From positions 1 to 34,894 of IMG/VR virus record IMGVR_UViG_3300032820_000050: a stretch of 34,894 bases of DNA; one strand, 5' to 3'. Positions 5,189 through 13,610 of this stretch are shown one piece after another. Every line of letters starts with the position of its first letter. Position 1 is the stretch's first letter. The notes under the pieces are model-generated. The model was not told the origin of the DNA, searched no databases, and was given only the letters and a program-made list of their open reading frames with translations. The DNA is from a virus. The translations under genes and the position numbers were made by a program.

Positions 5189-6481
5189 ATGGATACGTTA
5201 AAGAAGAAAGTTTTAACCGTATTGGCGATTGTTCTAACAGTCTCCTTAATACTGGGTGGAATTGTTGGATTGGCATTAAGTTATTTAAATCCTGTTCAAT
5301 GGATTCAACCTTACCTTTCCCCATGTATTAATTATGTTGGATGTTGGGTTCACCCAACGCTACTCTATACGAGTTCTGTAATTGATACGTTAAATGCTAA
5401 CTGGTTAATAACATTACCTACTTCTCTCGTGATTTTTGCTACAGGTTTACTTCAACCTGAAGCACGTAGAAACATACGTGCCTTTCCTCGTAAAGTTATC
5501 AACGCATACAAGAGGGTATGTATATGGAGAGATAAGCTATTCAGTTTAATAGAAAGACTGAATACTGAATCAGCCAAGTGGAAGAGAACTTTTAATGTAC
5601 TCAAATCTCCCTACACATTACTTCGTGCATTCGGGCTAAGTCCACAGATGGCCATATCTCTCTTGGCAGTAGGGTCTACCGCAGGAACTGGAGTTATAGT
5701 TAACGAAACCGTCTTAGCGGAACGCTCATTTTCAAATGGAGACTCAGGTGTATACCTTGCTCCACTAGATACTCCTTCTTACTTTGACGATAAAGATAAC
5801 ACGTTAAGGATTAACCTAGGTGCTGTACCAGTAAGAGAGATTACTATTGAGAACGTATCAGCAGGAACAGTTTACTCAGGAGATGCTGCAGGAGCAAAAG
5901 TTTCTGCATTACCTGCAACCTGTGGGTCAAATGGAAGTACGGCTTGTACAGAAGCAGTTTTAATTTCTGGTAATCCTACCGTAGTTGATCCCGCGTTTAC
6001 TGGAACAAGGCTACAGGTAGGTACATTTATAATTGAGAAGTCTAGATGTAAGAGTATGGACTTCAGCGATATAGATGCTCATACAATAGTTATAGAGCAT
6101 AACGCCAGTGATGGGCAAAGTATTACCCAAACATCTGGTAACGCTAGAAATAGGGCTATAGGAGGGGGACATCATCAAGCAGAAGCTATGGTAACTAGTG
6201 GAGGTACATATGACCGCATATGGATTGACGCTCCTAACTCTGGGGTTAACGGAAAGATAGGTACATTAACTTTAAGCAATTTATGGACGAAGGGTGGAAG
6301 TTGTACCTTTAAAAACATGGACATAGGCGTATTAAAGATTTTACAGAATGAAGTTGGTAATGACGGCAACTTGGTTACAAAGGAGTTTCAAGTATCTGGA
6401 GTTACAGGTGCTAACTGGACGGTAACCGATAACGTGGAATTAATCTTCTCTGAACCTGCACTTGATAAGGGTAACGAGTAG
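5189..6481 (+). CDS. Membrane-anchored protein leading the late operon
   Basis: This 430-aa product of unknown function is the first rightward gene. Three hydrophobic segments are visible: residues 9-32 after a Lys-rich start, 72-89 and 153-171. A basic stretch (residues 91-145) lies between the second and third. After residue 180 comes a roughly 250-residue beta-rich region with Gly/Thr/Asn turns and several Cys, ending in a probable jelly-roll-like domain. It could be a membrane receptor or exclusion protein, or a virion spike with a membrane base. AAGGA precedes the ATG. Arg codons CGT/CGC are somewhat more common than in the neighbours. Confidence 0.8.
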   Translation: MDTLKKKVLTVLAIVLTVSLILGGIVGLALSYLNPVQWIQPYLSPCINYVGCWVHPTLLYTSSVIDTLNANWLITLPTSLVIFATGLLQPEARRNIRAFPRKVINAYKRVCIWRDKLFSLIERLNTESAKWKRTFNVLKSPYTLLRAFGLSPQMAISLLAVGSTAGTGVIVNETVLAERSFSNGDSGVYLAPLDTPSYFDDKDNTLRINLGAVPVREITIENVSAGTVYSGDAAGAKVSALPATCGSNGSTACTEAVLISGNPTVVDPAFTGTRLQVGTFIIEKSRCKSMDFSDIDAHTIVIEHNASDGQSITQTSGNARNRAIGGGHHQAEAMVTSGGTYDRIWIDAPNSGVNGKIGTLTLSNLWTKGGSCTFKNMDIGVLKILQNEVGNDGNLVTKEFQVSGVTGANWTVTDNVELIFSEPALDKGNE

Positions 6482-6505: not shown

Positions 6506-7168
6506 ATGATCGAACAAAAAGAATTAGCTTCCCTAGAAGAACATTATGGTAAACCAATCCTTTCGGATGAAGGTGATCCTATCTGTGGGAGAGGAAAGAA
6601 AGGTGGTGGGGTGTGTAGATTTGAGGCAGGTTGGGGAACTGATCACTTAGGATACGGAGCATGTAAACATCACGATAGTGAAGAGAGAATGGATGTTGCT
6701 CTAGGAGACTCAGGGAAAGGAAGAGTTATATACAGTAATATAGCTCAAAACCTTAGACTGAGAGAACATCTACAATCAGAAGAGAAAAGAACAGAACTAG
6801 ATAACCTTGATGGCGAAATAGTTCTTCTTAGAGCAATGCTTAAAATACTCGTAGAGAAGTATGGAGAGAAAGTAATCGATGACGAACTCTTTGACATACT
6901 GGAGGTTGGAACTGACTTTGATGCAGTGGATCAGCAAACAAGAAGTTTAGTGAACCTAGTAGACAAGATTAGCACTAGCATTAAGCGTAAGTATGAAGTC
7001 TTACAGATTGCAGGAAGCACCATCACTAGAGGGAGAGTACGTGAATACGTAGCTAGTATACAACTTGCTCTTGGTCAAGTCTTACGTAACGAATGCCCTC
7101 ATTGCCACAAGAAACATAACCAAAGAGATCAAGCGATTGAAGCTATACGGAGAGTCGGAGAACTTTAA
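6506..7168 (+). CDS. Terminase small subunit-like zinc protein
   Basis: The 220-aa protein is probably the DNA-recognition subunit of the packaging motor. Near the N-terminus lies a zinc-binding signature, Cys27, Cys37, then AGWGTDHLGYGACKHH (Cys53, His55, His56). This pattern recurs in phage proteins encoded just before the large terminase. The centre is helical (residues 75-185). The C-terminus has a second knuckle, CPHCHKKH. AGAGGA precedes the ATG by a few nt. The stop overlaps the next start. The call rests on motif and position. Confidence 0.65.
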   Translation: MIEQKELASLEEHYGKPILSDEGDPICGRGKKGGGVCRFEAGWGTDHLGYGACKHHDSEERMDVALGDSGKGRVIYSNIAQNLRLREHLQSEEKRTELDNLDGEIVLLRAMLKILVEKYGEKVIDDELFDILEVGTDFDAVDQQTRSLVNLVDKISTSIKRKYEVLQIAGSTITRGRVREYVASIQLALGQVLRNECPHCHKKHNQRDQAIEAIRRVGEL

Positions 7169-7647
7169 TGTACGAATACAGGGTTAAAATTACAAGAGTG
7201 GTTGATGGAGATACAGTAGATGCCGAATTGGATTTGGGGTTTGATATTATCTATCGAGATAGAATCAGGCTTATGGGGATTGATACACCTGAGTCAAGAA
7301 CGCGAAACAAGAGAGAGAAAAGTTTGGGACTTGAATCTAAAGCTAGGCTCAAAGAACTCTGTTCTATTCATAAGGGAAATATTTTACTCAAGACTGCTAA
7401 AGAAGGTAAAGGTAAGTTCGGAAGGATATTAGGAGATTTATACCCTATAGATTCTAAAATATCTTTAAATACAATGTTGGTAACTGAAGGACACGCTAGA
7501 CCTTACTTTGGTGGAAGTAAAAATGAAACTGGAGATTGGACTAAAGAAGAAGGCGATTGTAATTGCGGAGGAAGAAAAGCATTTAGTCGCTGTACTGGAA
7601 AATGGTTTCGATGGACTTCAAGTGGTTATGTAGAGTTGGAAAACTAA
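7168..7647 (+). CDS. Staphylococcal nuclease-family (SNase) endonuclease
   Basis: The 159-aa protein has the SNase OB-fold motifs in order: VVDGDT (residues 11-16), RIRLMGIDTPES (32-43) and KFGRILGDL (83-91). These supply Arg34, Asp39, Glu42 and Arg86, matching the calcium-binding and catalytic residues of micrococcal nuclease, so it should be active. There is no signal peptide, so it acts inside the cell. A C-terminal Cys cluster (CNCGGRKAFSRC) is an added feature. Its place between TerS and TerL suggests a role in DNA processing or host DNA breakdown. Confidence 0.9.
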   Translation: MYEYRVKITRVVDGDTVDAELDLGFDIIYRDRIRLMGIDTPESRTRNKREKSLGLESKARLKELCSIHKGNILLKTAKEGKGKFGRILGDLYPIDSKISLNTMLVTEGHARPYFGGSKNETGDWTKEEGDCNCGGRKAFSRCTGKWFRWTSSGYVELEN

Positions 7648-8435
7648 TGCCAAGACAAATAGCTGATACAGCGAGTATCTCTATACTGTCAGGTATGAAA
7701 GAACGATCAGTAGCAGAAGAACGAGCATACGATCACCCTGCTTATTTTCATGAATATGTATTCAATCAAACTCTTGCTACGTTCCAGTGGGAGATTATGG
7801 AAACGCTATTGGAAGCTCACGTTAATCCGAATAACTCTTCTGTTAATCCCCTTCTTATTCTTGCTCCTAGAAATCATGGCAAAACTTCTATTGCCGCTGA
7901 AAGTTTTCCTCTCTGGAAAGTTGGCAGAAATAGATTTGAGTTGGTTCAAATTATTTCTAGTGTTATTTCATTAGGGGTAGAGCGAATGGGAAAGATTGAA
8001 TCCTGTATTCGTTTTAATGAAAGATATAAGCAAATGTTTGGAAATCTTTATCCTGAAGAACTAAATGATTACACATGGAAAGTTGATAGGATGGAAGTAG
8101 CTAGAGATCAAGCTCAAGCATGGGAAAGTGGAGATATACAACGTGATGCTACATTTGCTTGTTTTGGTATAGGTACAAGCGTGGAAGGTGGACGATCAAC
8201 TCTTCAGATATTTGATGATGTTGTGAGTATGGAGAATACTCAAAGTGAAACTTCTAGAAGAAATGTTTCTACAAAATTCTGGATGTCTTTTGACCCAATG
8301 CTCATGCCTAAAGGACAACAGATATTCCTTGGTACGAGATTTCATTATGATGATCTCTATGCAGAACTTATACCTATATTAGATACAGATAGATTGTATA
8401 CAGACCTTTACCCAAATATCTTGGAGGAAAGCTAA
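7647..8435 (+). CDS. terL: Large terminase, ATPase half (split TerL)
   Basis: The 262-aa product is the packaging ATPase domain only. Walker A is APRNHGKT (73-80), Walker B LQIFDD (186-191), and the coupling motif GTRFH (229-233). These are the motor motifs of phage large terminases. The protein ends soon after DLYAELIPILDTDRLY, where a normal TerL runs on into its linker and nuclease. ATG at 7647 was chosen because it forms a TAATG junction with the nuclease gene. The nuclease half is encoded separately at 8919, in the same reading frame. Confidence 0.9.
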   Translation: MPRQIADTASISILSGMKERSVAEERAYDHPAYFHEYVFNQTLATFQWEIMETLLEAHVNPNNSSVNPLLILAPRNHGKTSIAAESFPLWKVGRNRFELVQIISSVISLGVERMGKIESCIRFNERYKQMFGNLYPEELNDYTWKVDRMEVARDQAQAWESGDIQRDATFACFGIGTSVEGGRSTLQIFDDVVSMENTQSETSRRNVSTKFWMSFDPMLMPKGQQIFLGTRFHYDDLYAELIPILDTDRLYTDLYPNILEES

Positions 8436-8584
8436 TGAAGAAAAAGATAGCAATAGGTTCTGTATTAGGACTCACGACTTTAGCTATCGGTGGATTAATT
8501 TGGAAAATCAAGAATGTTCGTATGTGGCGAGAGATAGATGGAAGTTTACCTTTTCCTAGAGCAAAGAAACTTGGAGACAAGTAA
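8435..8584 (+). CDS. 49-aa membrane protein inserted in TerL
   Basis: A short protein with a Lys-rich start (MKKKIAIGSV), one transmembrane helix over about residues 6-23, and a basic C-terminal tail. GGAGG lies about 10 nt before its ATG, which overlaps the stop of the ATPase half (TAATG). It ends in another TAATG junction. This tight packing supports translation. It could be a small holin-like protein or a partner of the next gene; neither is established. Confidence 0.75.
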   Translation: MKKKIAIGSVLGLTTLAIGGLIWKIKNVRMWREIDGSLPFPRAKKLGDK

Positions 8585-8916
8585 TGGACATTAAGAATAT
8601 GAAAGTAATGATTGGAATCATTGTTGCAATCGTTGCTCAAGCCTTTGGAATGATTTGGTATATAGCCCAACTTGATTCCACAGTAACCAATAATACTCTT
8701 GCTATAGAAAGTCTAGAAGTATTTGATGATACTGACCTCCTAGAAGCAATTGAGGATTTTGATAACCGCCTAGATGATATCGAGAAGAAGCAAGCAATTA
8801 TAGAAAATGAAATGAGGTCTATCATGTCAGACCATTCCAGTTTTAATAACATCCTAAAAGACATGGGTCAAAGTGGATATGGAGATACTAGACAGTATGG
8901 TAATTATGGTAACTGA
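8584..8916 (+). CDS. Membrane plus coiled-coil protein inserted in TerL
   Basis: The 110-aa product has one N-terminal transmembrane helix (residues 8-27), then IAQLDSTVTNNTLAIESLE and a long acidic coiled coil to about residue 85, and a Gly/Tyr/Asn tail. One N-terminal span plus an external coiled coil is the topology of i-spanins, and similar short proteins with a WxxxQLDSxV motif after the helix occur in phages. No lipoprotein partner is visible, so a lysis role is only a suggestion. Confidence 0.75.
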   Translation: MDIKNMKVMIGIIVAIVAQAFGMIWYIAQLDSTVTNNTLAIESLEVFDDTDLLEAIEDFDNRLDDIEKKQAIIENEMRSIMSDHSSFNNILKDMGQSGYGDTRQYGNYGN

Positions 8917-8918
8917 TA

Positions 8919-9794
8919 ATGGGAGTTAGAATATATCGGGCAATCAATCCTGATGGTTCAGTCTTATGGGAAGAGGAACGCCCTAGAGAGTGGCTTGAGA
9001 AGAAAAAACGTTCTATGCCACCCTCATTATTTAATGCTCAATATCAAAATGATCCTTCTGGAATGAAGGGAGTTAAATTTGAAATTGATTGGCTTCACTT
9101 TTATGATGATGTGTCTATACCTCCTATACATAGATTAATAGGAGTCCAAGGTGGTGATCCTGCAACAAGTGAAGGAGAAAGTGCTAATTACTTTGGTCAC
9201 TGTACAGCAGGGAAAGACCCTGAGACTGGAATAGTTTATGTGCTAGATTTTGCATATGGAAAGATAACTGCACCTAAACACCTTGAATTTCTTCATGCTC
9301 AATACGAAACATGGAGAAGAAGGGGTCTAACAATTAATAAAGTTATTCTTGAAACAAATGGGCCTCAACAGGCAACCACTCAACATCTTATTAATCAAAC
9401 ACGAAATGATCCTAGAGGTGCTATGCCTATTGATACTGTTAGTCCCAAGGGTTCTAAGGAACAGCGTTATGATTCTATTATTCCTTTTATAGCTAATGGC
9501 AGTATTAAATTCAAAGGAGAAAGGCGTGGGGATGATATGTTTATGAGTTCTGAAAATGGATTTAAAGAATTCATGCACGAGTATAGCTCTTTTCCTAGAG
9601 GGGGTAGAGATGATATTCTTGACGCACTATGGATTGCAGTTCATCAATTAACTTCATCAGTTGAAGCTGTTGCAATAACAGAAGAAGATGTTATGGAAGA
9701 AAATCAATATATAGAACCAATGGATACTCCAAGAGAAAGAGTTTTAAGTGCTTCTGCTCGACCAAGTTTATTTCATAGTAGAGGATTTAGGTAA
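8919..9794 (+). CDS. terL: Large terminase, nuclease half (split TerL)
   Basis: The 291-aa protein opens with the linker that normally joins the two TerL domains (RIYRAINPDGSVLW, then SLFNAQYQNDP) and goes on to the RNase H-like headful nuclease. Likely metal ligands are Asp80 (GVQGGDPA), Glu145 (VILETNG) and Asp231/232/235 (GRDDILDALW). The fold is complete, so cutting activity is expected once it pairs with the ATPase half. Its ATG lies 2 nt after the stop of the inserted coiled-coil gene, with no strong Shine-Dalgarno, suggesting coupled translation. Confidence 0.9.
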   Translation: MGVRIYRAINPDGSVLWEEERPREWLEKKKRSMPPSLFNAQYQNDPSGMKGVKFEIDWLHFYDDVSIPPIHRLIGVQGGDPATSEGESANYFGHCTAGKDPETGIVYVLDFAYGKITAPKHLEFLHAQYETWRRRGLTINKVILETNGPQQATTQHLINQTRNDPRGAMPIDTVSPKGSKEQRYDSIIPFIANGSIKFKGERRGDDMFMSSENGFKEFMHEYSSFPRGGRDDILDALWIAVHQLTSSVEAVAITEEDVMEENQYIEPMDTPRERVLSASARPSLFHSRGFR

Positions 9795-9798
9795 TCAT

Positions 9799-11343
9799 AT
9801 GGGTAAGTTAAAAAATGCTTGGAATGCTTTAACAACAACAGAGAAGGAAGCTGTTAGTTTCGCAGACACTACTGAACCTGATGAGTATTTGTGGAAAAAG
9901 ATGGGAACAGGGAATAAGACTAATAATCTTCCTCCTTTAACTCAAGAACAAACATTAGAGTATGCTCAGTATTTTTATAAGAGTAACCCTATAGCTAAAA
10001 GGATTATTGATCTTACTGCTGAATATGTTATCGGTGATGGTATTAAATATGTAGCAGAAGATACTGCTGTTCAAGAAATACTGGATGCTCATTGGACTGA
10101 TCCCACAAACAATTGGACTATTAATCAATTTACAAGAGTAAGGGATTTAGGCTTAACAGGAGAACAGTGTATACCTGTATATATTAATGAAAGTAATGGA
10201 CACGTTACTCTTGGAAATATTGATACCGCAATGATTGATACTGTTATTGAAAATCCTCATAACAACATGAAACAACAGATGATCATATTGAAGAAGATTG
10301 CAGGAGAAGCATACCGTAGAGCTTACAAGATCATAGATATATCCAATGCTCCTATAGGAACAAAAGAATATGGGAGATTGGTGGGATTAAATTGTGGAGA
10401 GATTAAGGGTGGAGATTTTGAACTTGGAGATATCATTGAACCCAAACAGGGACGTAAAAAATATAAATGTAAAATAGCAGGTGCTTGTTTCTTCTTTACA
10501 ATTAATAATCCAATGACTGCTGATAGGGGATGGAGCGATCTTCTTCCTGATATGGATTGGATAGACGCTCATGATCAATTCTTATTCTCTTCTGTAGAGA
10601 AAGCAATAGAATCCTCTAAGTATGTACTTGATGTAACTTTAACTGGTAAAAACGAACAACAGATTAGAGAGTGGTTAAGAAACCAATCAGCCCTAAAACC
10701 CGGTCAAAGATTTGCTCATAATGAAAACGTCACACAGGAATTTAAGACTCCTGATTTACGTTTAGAGGATAGTGCAAGTTTAGCCTCAGTATTAAAAAAC
10801 CATGTTCTAGCAGGGGCAGGTTTACCTCCTATATGGTTCTCTGAGTCCTTAACTTCTCGTGCTTCTGCTCCCGAAATGACTGAACCTGCATATCGCCACT
10901 TGAAGATGAGGCAAAAACATATTTCTTACATAATGAGTAGGATATTTAGATTTGTCCTAGATACAGCAATAGTGTATGGACGATTAAGACAAGATGGTCG
11001 TTATAGCGATAGAAATCTTGCTAGTATTGAATCTGCAAGTTTTTATCTCCGAATGCCTGAAGTTTCCTTTAGGGATCAAAGGGCTAATGCAATTACTTTA
11101 AGATCAGTATCTACGGCTCTTAAAGATGCAACGTCTAATGGCTTCATAGATTTAGAAGAAGCTAATAGAATCTTTAAAAGATATTTAGGGCTTACAGGAA
11201 TTGATACAGGAAAAGATGAACCTGCACAAAAACGTGGGGTGTATGATGTAGATACAACTCTAAAGGAATTGTTCCAAACAACTACTGAATCTATTCATAT
11301 TAATGATTTTACTTATTATCCTTTTCCCGATAGAGTAAAATAA
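9799..11343 (+). CDS. Portal protein
   Basis: The 514-aa protein is called as the portal from its position after the terminase and before the capsid fusion, and from portal-like features: the early helix YFYKSNPIAKRIIDLTAEYV, a beta-rich wing (residues 120-240) and the C-terminal helical crown region with the FRDQRANAITLRSVSTAL stretch. Portals form the dodecameric DNA gateway and docking site of the terminase. The start at 9799 (MGKLKNAW) is preferred over an upstream in-frame codon that would lie within the terminase gene. Confidence 0.85.
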   Translation: MGKLKNAWNALTTTEKEAVSFADTTEPDEYLWKKMGTGNKTNNLPPLTQEQTLEYAQYFYKSNPIAKRIIDLTAEYVIGDGIKYVAEDTAVQEILDAHWTDPTNNWTINQFTRVRDLGLTGEQCIPVYINESNGHVTLGNIDTAMIDTVIENPHNNMKQQMIILKKIAGEAYRRAYKIIDISNAPIGTKEYGRLVGLNCGEIKGGDFELGDIIEPKQGRKKYKCKIAGACFFFTINNPMTADRGWSDLLPDMDWIDAHDQFLFSSVEKAIESSKYVLDVTLTGKNEQQIREWLRNQSALKPGQRFAHNENVTQEFKTPDLRLEDSASLASVLKNHVLAGAGLPPIWFSESLTSRASAPEMTEPAYRHLKMRQKHISYIMSRIFRFVLDTAIVYGRLRQDGRYSDRNLASIESASFYLRMPEVSFRDQRANAITLRSVSTALKDATSNGFIDLEEANRIFKRYLGLTGIDTGKDEPAQKRGVYDVDTTLKELFQTTTESIHINDFTYYPFPDRVK

Positions 11344-11408: not shown

Positions 11409-13610
11409 ATGCCAGAAAAACTAGAAGATTGCGTTAAAGATATTTTAGCTGATCCTGATTTTGTACCTGAAGAGGGACATGATAGAGAGGATGCGGCTTA
11501 TGCTATTTGTACCGCAAGAATGAAGTTAGATCAGGTGGAACAAGAGGCAATGGCTCATTCTGATTATGTAGAAAGTACACAGATGATTAAACGTACTCTT
11601 CAATTTGAAGCTAGAGCATTAGATGATACAGGAAGCGATTGGCGTATTCGTATTATCAATGCAGGAACATCAAGAAATAATAGAGAATATCCTTTAGATG
11701 TTCTTCATAGAGATGCGTTAATTTTTGAAGGAGTTCCAGTTCATGCAGGAAATGGTAGAGATCATTCTCCTGAAGAACGTGGCGTTAAAAGTATTGTTGG
11801 GTTTATTAAAAATGTAGATCGAGTTCCGGAAGGACTTGATGCTACATTTCATGTTTCTGATCCAACTCTAAGAGATACTCTTCTTGATTTACATAAGGAA
11901 GGAGTATTAAGTTCTGTTGTTGGATTTAGCATTGTTGCTGAAGGACGATGGCAAAGTGATCAGGTAATGAAGTCAGAGCGAGCAATACAGCTAGTACGAG
12001 CCGACTCTGTAGATTTGGTTAGAGAACCTGCCGCAGGGGGTAAATTCCTTGCAGTTGCAGAGTCAGAAGAAGTTATCCATAAAGAAGAAGTCATTAATAC
12101 AATTCCTTTTAAGGAGGGAAAAACAATGGAAATAACTGAGGAAAAGTTACAAGACCTTCTTGCGGAAGCCTCCAAAAGGGAAGCCGTAAAAGAAGTTATA
12201 GAAAGTGAGGAAGTAAGTAAGGTTGAAGAAGCTCTTACTCAGCTAAATTCCACTCTTCTTAATTCAGCGATTTCAGGTGCAGGTTTACCTGACATTGCAG
12301 AGAATAGAATTCGGGTTCAATTTGAAGGTGGATCATTTGATGCTCCTGCTGTTCAGAAAGCAATTGCAGACGAGAAAGATTATCTCGCTAGTTTAAATAA
12401 GGTTGCTGTAGAGAACGTCACCACTAGTAAGACTGAAATTATTGCTGATGAGGGTGACAAGAAACTTGCTCGACTGGATGCTTCTTTCACACCATCTAGA
12501 GTTATAGTAACTAAAGATGGAGAGAGAATTAAGGGATACCGAACCTTTACAGAAGCATATTGTGATTGGACTGGAAAGAATCCTTTTGAAGTTGGACGAG
12601 ATGAAGTTTGGGAAGCATGGATGAATGGCTCAAGAGGTTATGCGTCTTGGCGTGAAGAAGCTGTTAGTAGGCTTTACACAGAAGCAATAGGTACATCTGA
12701 ATGGGCAGAAGTTGCCGCAGACAGAATGCACAAAGCCCTGTTACAGAACTATGTTGATCTGCCTCAGTATCAAGATTGGAGAAAAGTAGCAAAGGTTATC
12801 AGCGTTAATGATTACCAAGCATACAGAGACATCAAAATTGGTGGCTTTGCAGATTTGGCAGTTGTTGCAGAAGCAGGTACATATGCTAACCTAACCAATC
12901 CTACAGATGAGGAAACTTCAGTTACCATGCAGAAGCGTGGTGGTATCGCTTATCAGATAACACGCGAATTGGTGTTGAATGATAATATCGGTGCTGTAGC
13001 TGAGATACCTCGTGAACTGGCTCGATCTGCTGCTAGAACTCTTTATAAGCAGGTCTTTAATATAATGGGTGACAATGATCACACTTATCAGCCTGACTCT
13101 GTAGCTACGTTCAATGCTGCTCATAATAATATTGGCACTACTGCTCTTTCTATTGCAGGTCTGAATGAGACATCAATAGGCATGAGAAGTCAGACTAGAT
13201 ATGGTGCTACCGCTGATGTGCTTGGAGCTGCAAATGCACCTAGAACATTGGTTGTGCCTAATGAGCTGACTAGCTTGGCAATGAGGATTTCAAATCCATC
13301 TGCTCACGTTCAGGTCGAGTTAACTGCTGATGCTGATACAGATATAGATGCCGCACGATTCGCAGGATTAGATGTCATAACAGTTGACTACTTCACTAAT
13401 GCTACTCAGTATTTCACCGTTGCTGATCCTGATGAAGCCGCAGGAATTGTGGTTGCATTCTTGAACGGTAACGAAGAGCCTGATCTGTTTATACAGAATG
13501 ACGAGACTCAAGGTGATACATTCACCAATGATGTACAAAGCATTAAAGTAAGGCACGAGTTCAACACAACTGTTGCTGACTTCCGACCGCTTTACAGGCA
13601 AATTGGGTAA
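11409..13610 (+). CDS. Prohead protease-scaffold-major capsid fusion
   Basis: This 733-aa polyprotein holds three parts. Residues 1-42 carry a small helical module ending AYAIC. Residues about 60-215 are an HK97/Mu-type prohead protease: His112 or His119 and Ser174 (VVGFS) are candidate catalytic residues, with the typical SVDLVREPAAGG end. Residues about 240-345 are a charged, helical scaffold-like region. Residues about 350-733 are an HK97-fold major capsid protein (E-loop and spine-like regions around YRDIKIGGFADLAV and KRGGIAYQITREL). A strong internal start at residue 240 should supply extra capsid. A terminator follows. Confidence 0.85.
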   Translation: MPEKLEDCVKDILADPDFVPEEGHDREDAAYAICTARMKLDQVEQEAMAHSDYVESTQMIKRTLQFEARALDDTGSDWRIRIINAGTSRNNREYPLDVLHRDALIFEGVPVHAGNGRDHSPEERGVKSIVGFIKNVDRVPEGLDATFHVSDPTLRDTLLDLHKEGVLSSVVGFSIVAEGRWQSDQVMKSERAIQLVRADSVDLVREPAAGGKFLAVAESEEVIHKEEVINTIPFKEGKTMEITEEKLQDLLAEASKREAVKEVIESEEVSKVEEALTQLNSTLLNSAISGAGLPDIAENRIRVQFEGGSFDAPAVQKAIADEKDYLASLNKVAVENVTTSKTEIIADEGDKKLARLDASFTPSRVIVTKDGERIKGYRTFTEAYCDWTGKNPFEVGRDEVWEAWMNGSRGYASWREEAVSRLYTEAIGTSEWAEVAADRMHKALLQNYVDLPQYQDWRKVAKVISVNDYQAYRDIKIGGFADLAVVAEAGTYANLTNPTDEETSVTMQKRGGIAYQITRELVLNDNIGAVAEIPRELARSAARTLYKQVFNIMGDNDHTYQPDSVATFNAAHNNIGTTALSIAGLNETSIGMRSQTRYGATADVLGAANAPRTLVVPNELTSLAMRISNPSAHVQVELTADADTDIDAARFAGLDVITVDYFTNATQYFTVADPDEAAGIVVAFLNGNEEPDLFIQNDETQGDTFTNDVQSIKVRHEFNTTVADFRPLYRQIG
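12111..12128 (+). promoter_or_regulatory. Internal ribosome-binding site for nested capsid start
   Basis: AAGGAGGG at 12111-12118 is followed after 7 nt by an in-frame ATG at 12126. It is one of the strongest Shine-Dalgarno sites in the window, and it lies inside the fusion gene exactly at the protease/scaffold boundary. Confidence 0.75.
12126..13610 (+). CDS. Nested scaffold-capsid protein (internal start)
   Basis: Translation from the internal ATG gives a 494-aa scaffold-capsid protein without the protease, identical to residues 240-733 of the fusion. A shell needs hundreds of capsid subunits but few proteases. Nested in-frame starts solve this in other phages (for example lambda C/Nu3). 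The product is inferred from the ribosome-binding site and domain boundary, not shown. The first residues (MEITEEKLQDLLAEASKR) form a helical scaffold-like segment. Confidence 0.65.
   Translation: MEITEEKLQDLLAEASKREAVKEVIESEEVSKVEEALTQLNSTLLNSAISGAGLPDIAENRIRVQFEGGSFDAPAVQKAIADEKDYLASLNKVAVENVTTSKTEIIADEGDKKLARLDASFTPSRVIVTKDGERIKGYRTFTEAYCDWTGKNPFEVGRDEVWEAWMNGSRGYASWREEAVSRLYTEAIGTSEWAEVAADRMHKALLQNYVDLPQYQDWRKVAKVISVNDYQAYRDIKIGGFADLAVVAEAGTYANLTNPTDEETSVTMQKRGGIAYQITRELVLNDNIGAVAEIPRELARSAARTLYKQVFNIMGDNDHTYQPDSVATFNAAHNNIGTTALSIAGLNETSIGMRSQTRYGATADVLGAANAPRTLVVPNELTSLAMRISNPSAHVQVELTADADTDIDAARFAGLDVITVDYFTNATQYFTVADPDEAAGIVVAFLNGNEEPDLFIQNDETQGDTFTNDVQSIKVRHEFNTTVADFRPLYRQIG

Follow-up and report, generated by a model that had tools for sequence, protein, structure and literature searches.

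The window analyzed here, a 34,894-nucleotide stretch of an uncultured phage (IMG/VR record IMGVR_UViG_3300032820_000050, positions 1 to 34,894), carries its packaging genes as one plus-strand operon in the order given in Table 1. The large terminase (TerL) drives DNA into the virus shell; it is usually viewed as a single protein of two domains, and its gene is a standard marker for tailed phages. It is encoded here by an ATPase gene and a nuclease gene with two small open reading frames, ORF1 and ORF2, between them. The ATG of the ATPase gene overlaps the stop codon of the upstream gene, and a longer in-frame alternative start lies at 7602. Stop and start codons meet as TAATG at the ATPase/ORF1 and ORF1/ORF2 junctions and as TGATAATG at the ORF2/nuclease junction. 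The coordinates and TAATG junctions given for this region in an initial annotation are correct. That annotation had ended the ATPase gene directly after the residues DTDRLY, but the gene runs for 11 residues more (TDLYPNILEES), to a stop codon at 8433-8435. The nuclease gene adjoins the portal gene, a position that fits a role in packaging. The possible small terminase has a homologue in the same operon of those relatives whose sequence covers the region (34-96% identity), and its product had no family match in the family searches.

Table 1. Features of the terminase region of the window
Feature	Position	Strand	Evidence
Possible small terminase gene, by position only	6506..7168	+	Conserved, upstream of packaging genes
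Staphylococcal-nuclease-like gene	7168-7647	+	PF00565 8.6e-12, phrog_452 1.1e-38
TerL ATPase half, 262 aa, tail LYTDLYP	7647..8435	+	PHROG 38 match, AlphaFold2 model, invariant residues
ORF1, 49 aa, single-span membrane protein	8435..8584	+	Hydrophobic segment, homologues in relatives
TAATGG junction copy 1 (ORF1 stop/ORF2 start)	8582..8587	+	L002 and L011 alignments to window break after 8587
ORF2, 110 aa, N-terminally anchored, weakly spanin-like	8584..8916	+	Hydrophobic segment, relocated homologues
TAATGG junction copy 2 (nuclease start)	8917..8922	+	Alignment restarts at 8917 (L002) or 8916 (L011)
TerL linker and nuclease half, 291 aa	8919..9794	+	PHROG 38 match, AlphaFold2 model, invariant residues
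Portal protein gene	9799..11343	+	phrog_10963 portal, E 6.9e-34

The two gene products match consecutive parts of the TerL family PHROG 38 (760 positions), with the ATPase half covering positions 261-463 and the nuclease half covering 473-721; a further search placed them at 262-463 (E 1.1e-33) and 474-717 (E 7.8e-43), respectively. The ATPase half has the Walker A and B residues, and R75, K79, D190 and D191 are invariant across split and fused relatives; the nuclease half has an RNase H fold with an acidic triad, and D80, E145, D232 and D235 are likewise invariant. The AlphaFold2 model of the ATPase half (pLDDT 84) was matched to the PhiV-1 terminase (8dgc_E; Z 23.1, rmsd 4.4 over 227 residues) and to the T4 gp17 ATPase domain (2o0j; Z 17.0), and that of the nuclease half (pLDDT 80) to the G20c TerL nuclease (5m1o; Z 16.5, rmsd 2.6 over 159 residues). 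In order to place the boundary, the halves were mapped on a profile HMM made from 18 fused TerL relatives. On this profile, the ATPase half stops at 227-231 and the nuclease half begins at 236 in shallow members of the clade described below and at 238-243 in deep members. Since the halves abut there, the break falls in the linker, all of the conserved residues are kept, and the linker is carried by the nuclease chain. When joined, the halves aligned to cultured-phage TerLs in one piece, through the junction, in all of the best 60 records (60/60), which confirms that fused homologues spanning the split exist. The ATPase chain extends past its domain into a tail with the motif LYxD[LM]Y, which is conserved in relatives and in which AlphaFold2 confidence drops to low values. 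The nuclease start is also conserved among split members (MGVRIY, MGVRLY or MAVRIY), as is the position of the ATPase stop.

IMG/VR was searched with each half and then with alignments, yielding 16 contigs that form one clade and carry 15 sample ids; two later IMG/VR scans added nothing beyond a 454-base fragment. TerL is split at the same place in all 16 contigs, at identities down to approximately 48%, and together with the consecutive family matches this recurrence upholds the initial assignment of TerL to two genes. Each half has its own stop and start in 16/16 contigs, so that this TerL departs from the usual, if not strictly defining, criterion that both domains lie in one polypeptide. 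Because it recurs in 16 contigs, the arrangement is far beyond chance, and L007, one of the contigs, hardly differs from the window (99.98% identity over 12.9 kb). In more distant relatives, with identities of about 32% or lower, TerL is fused in a single ORF. In the pairs shown, dN/dS was 0.02-0.13 for the ATPase half and 0.05-0.18 for the nuclease half; these low values indicate strong purifying selection and, therefore, that both genes are maintained. No other TerL was found in eight records, which may be incomplete and could therefore lack a second TerL that the phages carry. Scans of bacterial and archaeal genome contigs found no host or related prophage.

The contents of the gap between the halves differ within the clade. 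In L004 the gap is empty, with a one-base stop/start overlap (TTAATGG), while L002, L005, L006, L008 and L011 have a single membrane ORF of 43-49 aa. The window and L001 hold ORF1 and ORF2, and L003 and L010 combine a small membrane ORF with a PAPS-reductase-like gene (in L003, PF01507 5.7e-8 and phrog_424 7.6e-40). In the deep branch (L012, L062 and L063), the gap holds a Cys-containing, HTH-type protein of 103-123 aa, the HTH matches being weak and confined to L012, and a membrane gene is absent. A small membrane ORF lies directly 3' of the ATPase gene in nine of the ten shallow-clade members examined. Mapped on a tree of the joined halves, the gap states as labelled imply five or more changes, a minimum that drops when the small membrane ORFs are treated as a single kind; L004, which lacks an insert, is nested among insert-bearing members with moderate support (84-85%). 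These gap states and the nested position of L004 indicate that the split is common to the whole sampled clade and that its cargo turns over. The best reading of the sequence comparison is that genes turn over at the boundary between the two TerL genes. The initial annotation had envisaged membrane genes inserting into terL and splitting it. This idea fails, since L004 is split without an insert, other relatives carry other cargo and the deepest members have no membrane gene; on the genomes compared, the membrane genes are not the cause of the split. The PAPS-reductase-like gene (L003:866-1660 and L010:5225-5998, between the TerL genes) is a possible auxiliary metabolic gene, and a homologue anywhere in the record was found in only one of eight records searched.

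Both ORFs in the gap of the window encode N-terminal single-span membrane proteins, as initially annotated, with one hydrophobic segment each (residues 5-23 of ORF1 and 9-27 of ORF2; 19-residue Kyte-Doolittle means of 1.9 and 2.2, respectively). Homologues of ORF1 with a clear sequence match directly follow the ATPase gene in L001, L002 and L011, similar small membrane ORFs occupy the same position in L003, L005, L006, L008 and L010, and dN of ORF1 was well under dS in the pairs compared. ORF2 matched phrog_739 (Rz-like spanin) at 0.04 and its L004 homologue did so at 2e-5, values to which coiled-coil bias possibly contributes; judging from the weak match of the L004 homologue, ORF2 may be lysis-related. 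In L004 this homologue is found between the nuclease-like gene and the ATPase gene, where the junction is also AAGTAATGGA, and in L005 and L006 the homologues immediately precede the counterpart of gene 5189-6481.

Two relatives, L002 and L011, are colinear with the window on both sides of ORF2, and their flanking alignments overlap by 6-7 bases, so that ORF2 represents a one-gene difference between two TAATGG copies at a stop/start junction. This repeated TAATGG is the real junction signature. The initial annotation had instead pointed to the codons AGA-TTG-TAT and AGA-ATA-TAT as possible insertion remnants; both are present, but the first Arg varies among relatives (DRLY, EQLY, QKLY, EKLY, ENLY, EGLY), and because the Arg of AGA-TTG-TAT is not conserved, the codons are not a junction remnant. 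The movement of ORF2 looks like recombination at short shared junction sequences, and its direction, gain or loss, is one that we infer solely from the tree. Across 8328-8729 (~400 bases that take in the 3' end of the ATPase gene, ORF1 and some of ORF2) the window matches L001 base for base, in a 10-kb alignment that is about 92.5% identical, which suggests a recent exchange by recombination, though further high-identity tracts exist. Most probably, the window's membrane proteins are passengers and do not belong to the motor.

We hypothesize that these contigs represent a phage lineage with a stable two-gene TerL, split at the ATPase/nuclease linker, whose chains would assemble with each other, and we consider this very probable. 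A two-chain motor, which the initial annotation had thought necessary for packaging, follows provided that splicing and another TerL are both absent, and no sign of either was seen. The ATPase and nuclease chains would be made by coupled translation, their genes having overlapping or close stop and start codons, and would come together at the portal, without a covalent bond, to form one motor, with the linker that joins the domains in fused TerLs riding on the nuclease chain. The LYxD[LM]Y tail of the ATPase chain could serve as a docking peptide, although a docking role is a guess given the low-confidence prediction for this segment. As the coding sequence is broken already, gain and loss of small genes would be tolerated at the stop/start junction, and hence lineages would differ in their cargo.

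The fused TerLs of the PHROG 38 type (Weizmannia phage Youna2, PhiV-1 8dgc and T4 gp17) share both domains, their order, the catalytic residues and the linker with the clade, but are single polypeptides where the clade has two genes. When T4 gp17 was split at the linker, both activities were kept and translocation was abolished (PMC3012670). That cut was artificial and made in the same linker, whereas the split in the clade is natural and conserved. Set against the loss of translocation in T4, either a compensating contact involving the nuclease linker and the ATPase tail would restore movement, or the ATPase ring would move DNA alone and the nuclease would be separate. A natural, clade-wide motor of separate chains, in which the covalent hinge of T4 gp17 is dispensable and the gene boundary serves as a site of accessory-gene gain and loss in a conserved packaging operon, is a wider proposal whose chances we judge to be even.

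The second of these possibilities amounts to a division of labor, in which the ATPase chain alone would form the translocating ring and the nuclease chain would act as an endonuclease only for the cuts that initiate and terminate packaging. The separate genes of the two chains are in line with such a division, and the phi29 packaging ATPase has a nuclease-like domain that is not used for cutting. The separated T4 domains also retain ATPase and nuclease activity, but the T4 data give the nuclease domain a role in DNA movement (PMC3012670). With the domain-joining linker of fused TerLs retained on the nuclease chain as well, we regard a division of labor as unlikely, though it merits serious attention.

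A self-splicing intron that has gone unrecognized, with small ORFs between the halves and a spliced mRNA yielding one TerL, is highly improbable. Group I introns are known to invade terL, and splicing has been demonstrated for Shewanella phage KASIA (PMC8541194) and for the Jug phages (PMC12363816), where the terL coding sequence also lies in separate genomic pieces. In the window both halves are in one reading frame, as initially noted, but this does not hold as a feature of the clade, since the frames differ in L002, L004, L010, L011, L012, L062 and L063. Rfam gave no intron-type ribozyme match in the window or in 11 relatives, a search that an undescribed type of ribozyme would escape. L004 has nothing to remove, only a TAATG overlap; the gap contents are unrelated coding genes without a recognizable homing endonuclease among them; and the nuclease start codon is conserved. 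An intron, which the initial annotation had named as one outcome that would overturn its reading, thus appears strongly disfavored by the insert-free member, the varying frames and the lack of a ribozyme match. In KASIA and the Jug phages, by contrast, a spliced mRNA gives one protein.

Equally hard to sustain is a membrane-anchored form of packaging, in which the ORFs in the gap would be working parts of the packaging machine. Such a role would accord with the small membrane ORF that so regularly follows the ATPase gene in the shallow clade; however, L004 and the deep branch have no membrane gene in the gap, and ORF2 homologues sit elsewhere in relatives. Finally, decay or artefact, meaning an assembly chimera or a broken gene with another TerL active, is barely conceivable even though annotated split TerLs can be frameshifts (JXY1, phiPDS1), because the split occurs in 16 contigs with 15 sample ids, a comparison that excludes the chimera also raised in the initial annotation, both halves are under purifying selection, and no other TerL was found in the eight records.

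The open-access literature yielded no described stable two-gene TerL, only intron, intein, frameshift or annotation cases. The TerL of Microcystis phage Mic1 is interrupted by foreign sequence, as in the clade, but its inteins lie in one continuous ORF and are removed by protein splicing (PMC7156551), whereas the clade halves are separate genes with their own stop and start. Parabacteroides phage phiPDS1 (PMC10773633) and Streptomyces phage JXY1 each have two annotated TerL CDS, like the clade; both were rejected as precedents, being frameshifts in which homology runs on in another frame and close relatives are fused, and the phiPDS1 break is not at a domain boundary, in contrast to the break at the ATPase/nuclease linker in the clade. 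Cultured phages examined, including MD18, TR020, Youna2, Stella, PA11, CW02, Pecta, T4S1-k141_462158 and others, have a fused TerL gene, and those named were rejected as split precedents, with one full-length gene each. PHROG 4758 and 5573 (243 and 250 positions) are each matched by one TerL half, and two BFVD entries are short (A0A7M1CRY3, 327 aa, nuclease-like; A0A7M1CP09, 255 aa, ATPase-like), which hints at further short or split TerLs having been recorded unnoticed.

The two-chain lineage would offer a natural setting in which to ask whether translocation requires a covalent hinge. Marker-gene trees and annotation that count on a full-length TerL would be misled by such a split, which also illustrates how dividing a gene can create room for others.

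Several further features were observed. In two distant fused TerLs (L029:3-2591 and L031:3901-6651), a large intein-like insertion separates the Walker A region from the remainder of the ATPase domain; the insertion begins with Cys and ends with FTHN ahead of Ser. The staphylococcal-nuclease-like gene immediately precedes the ATPase gene, a position kept across the shallow clade, and no match to it was found in L012, L062 and L063. Gene 5189-6481 encodes a 430-aa protein that has hydrophobic stretches at its N-terminus and matches no family significantly; it adjoins the packaging genes across the clade and lies downstream of them in L063 and L064. A single 733-aa ORF at 11409-13610 has family matches to both head maturation protease and major head protein, a protease-capsid fusion.
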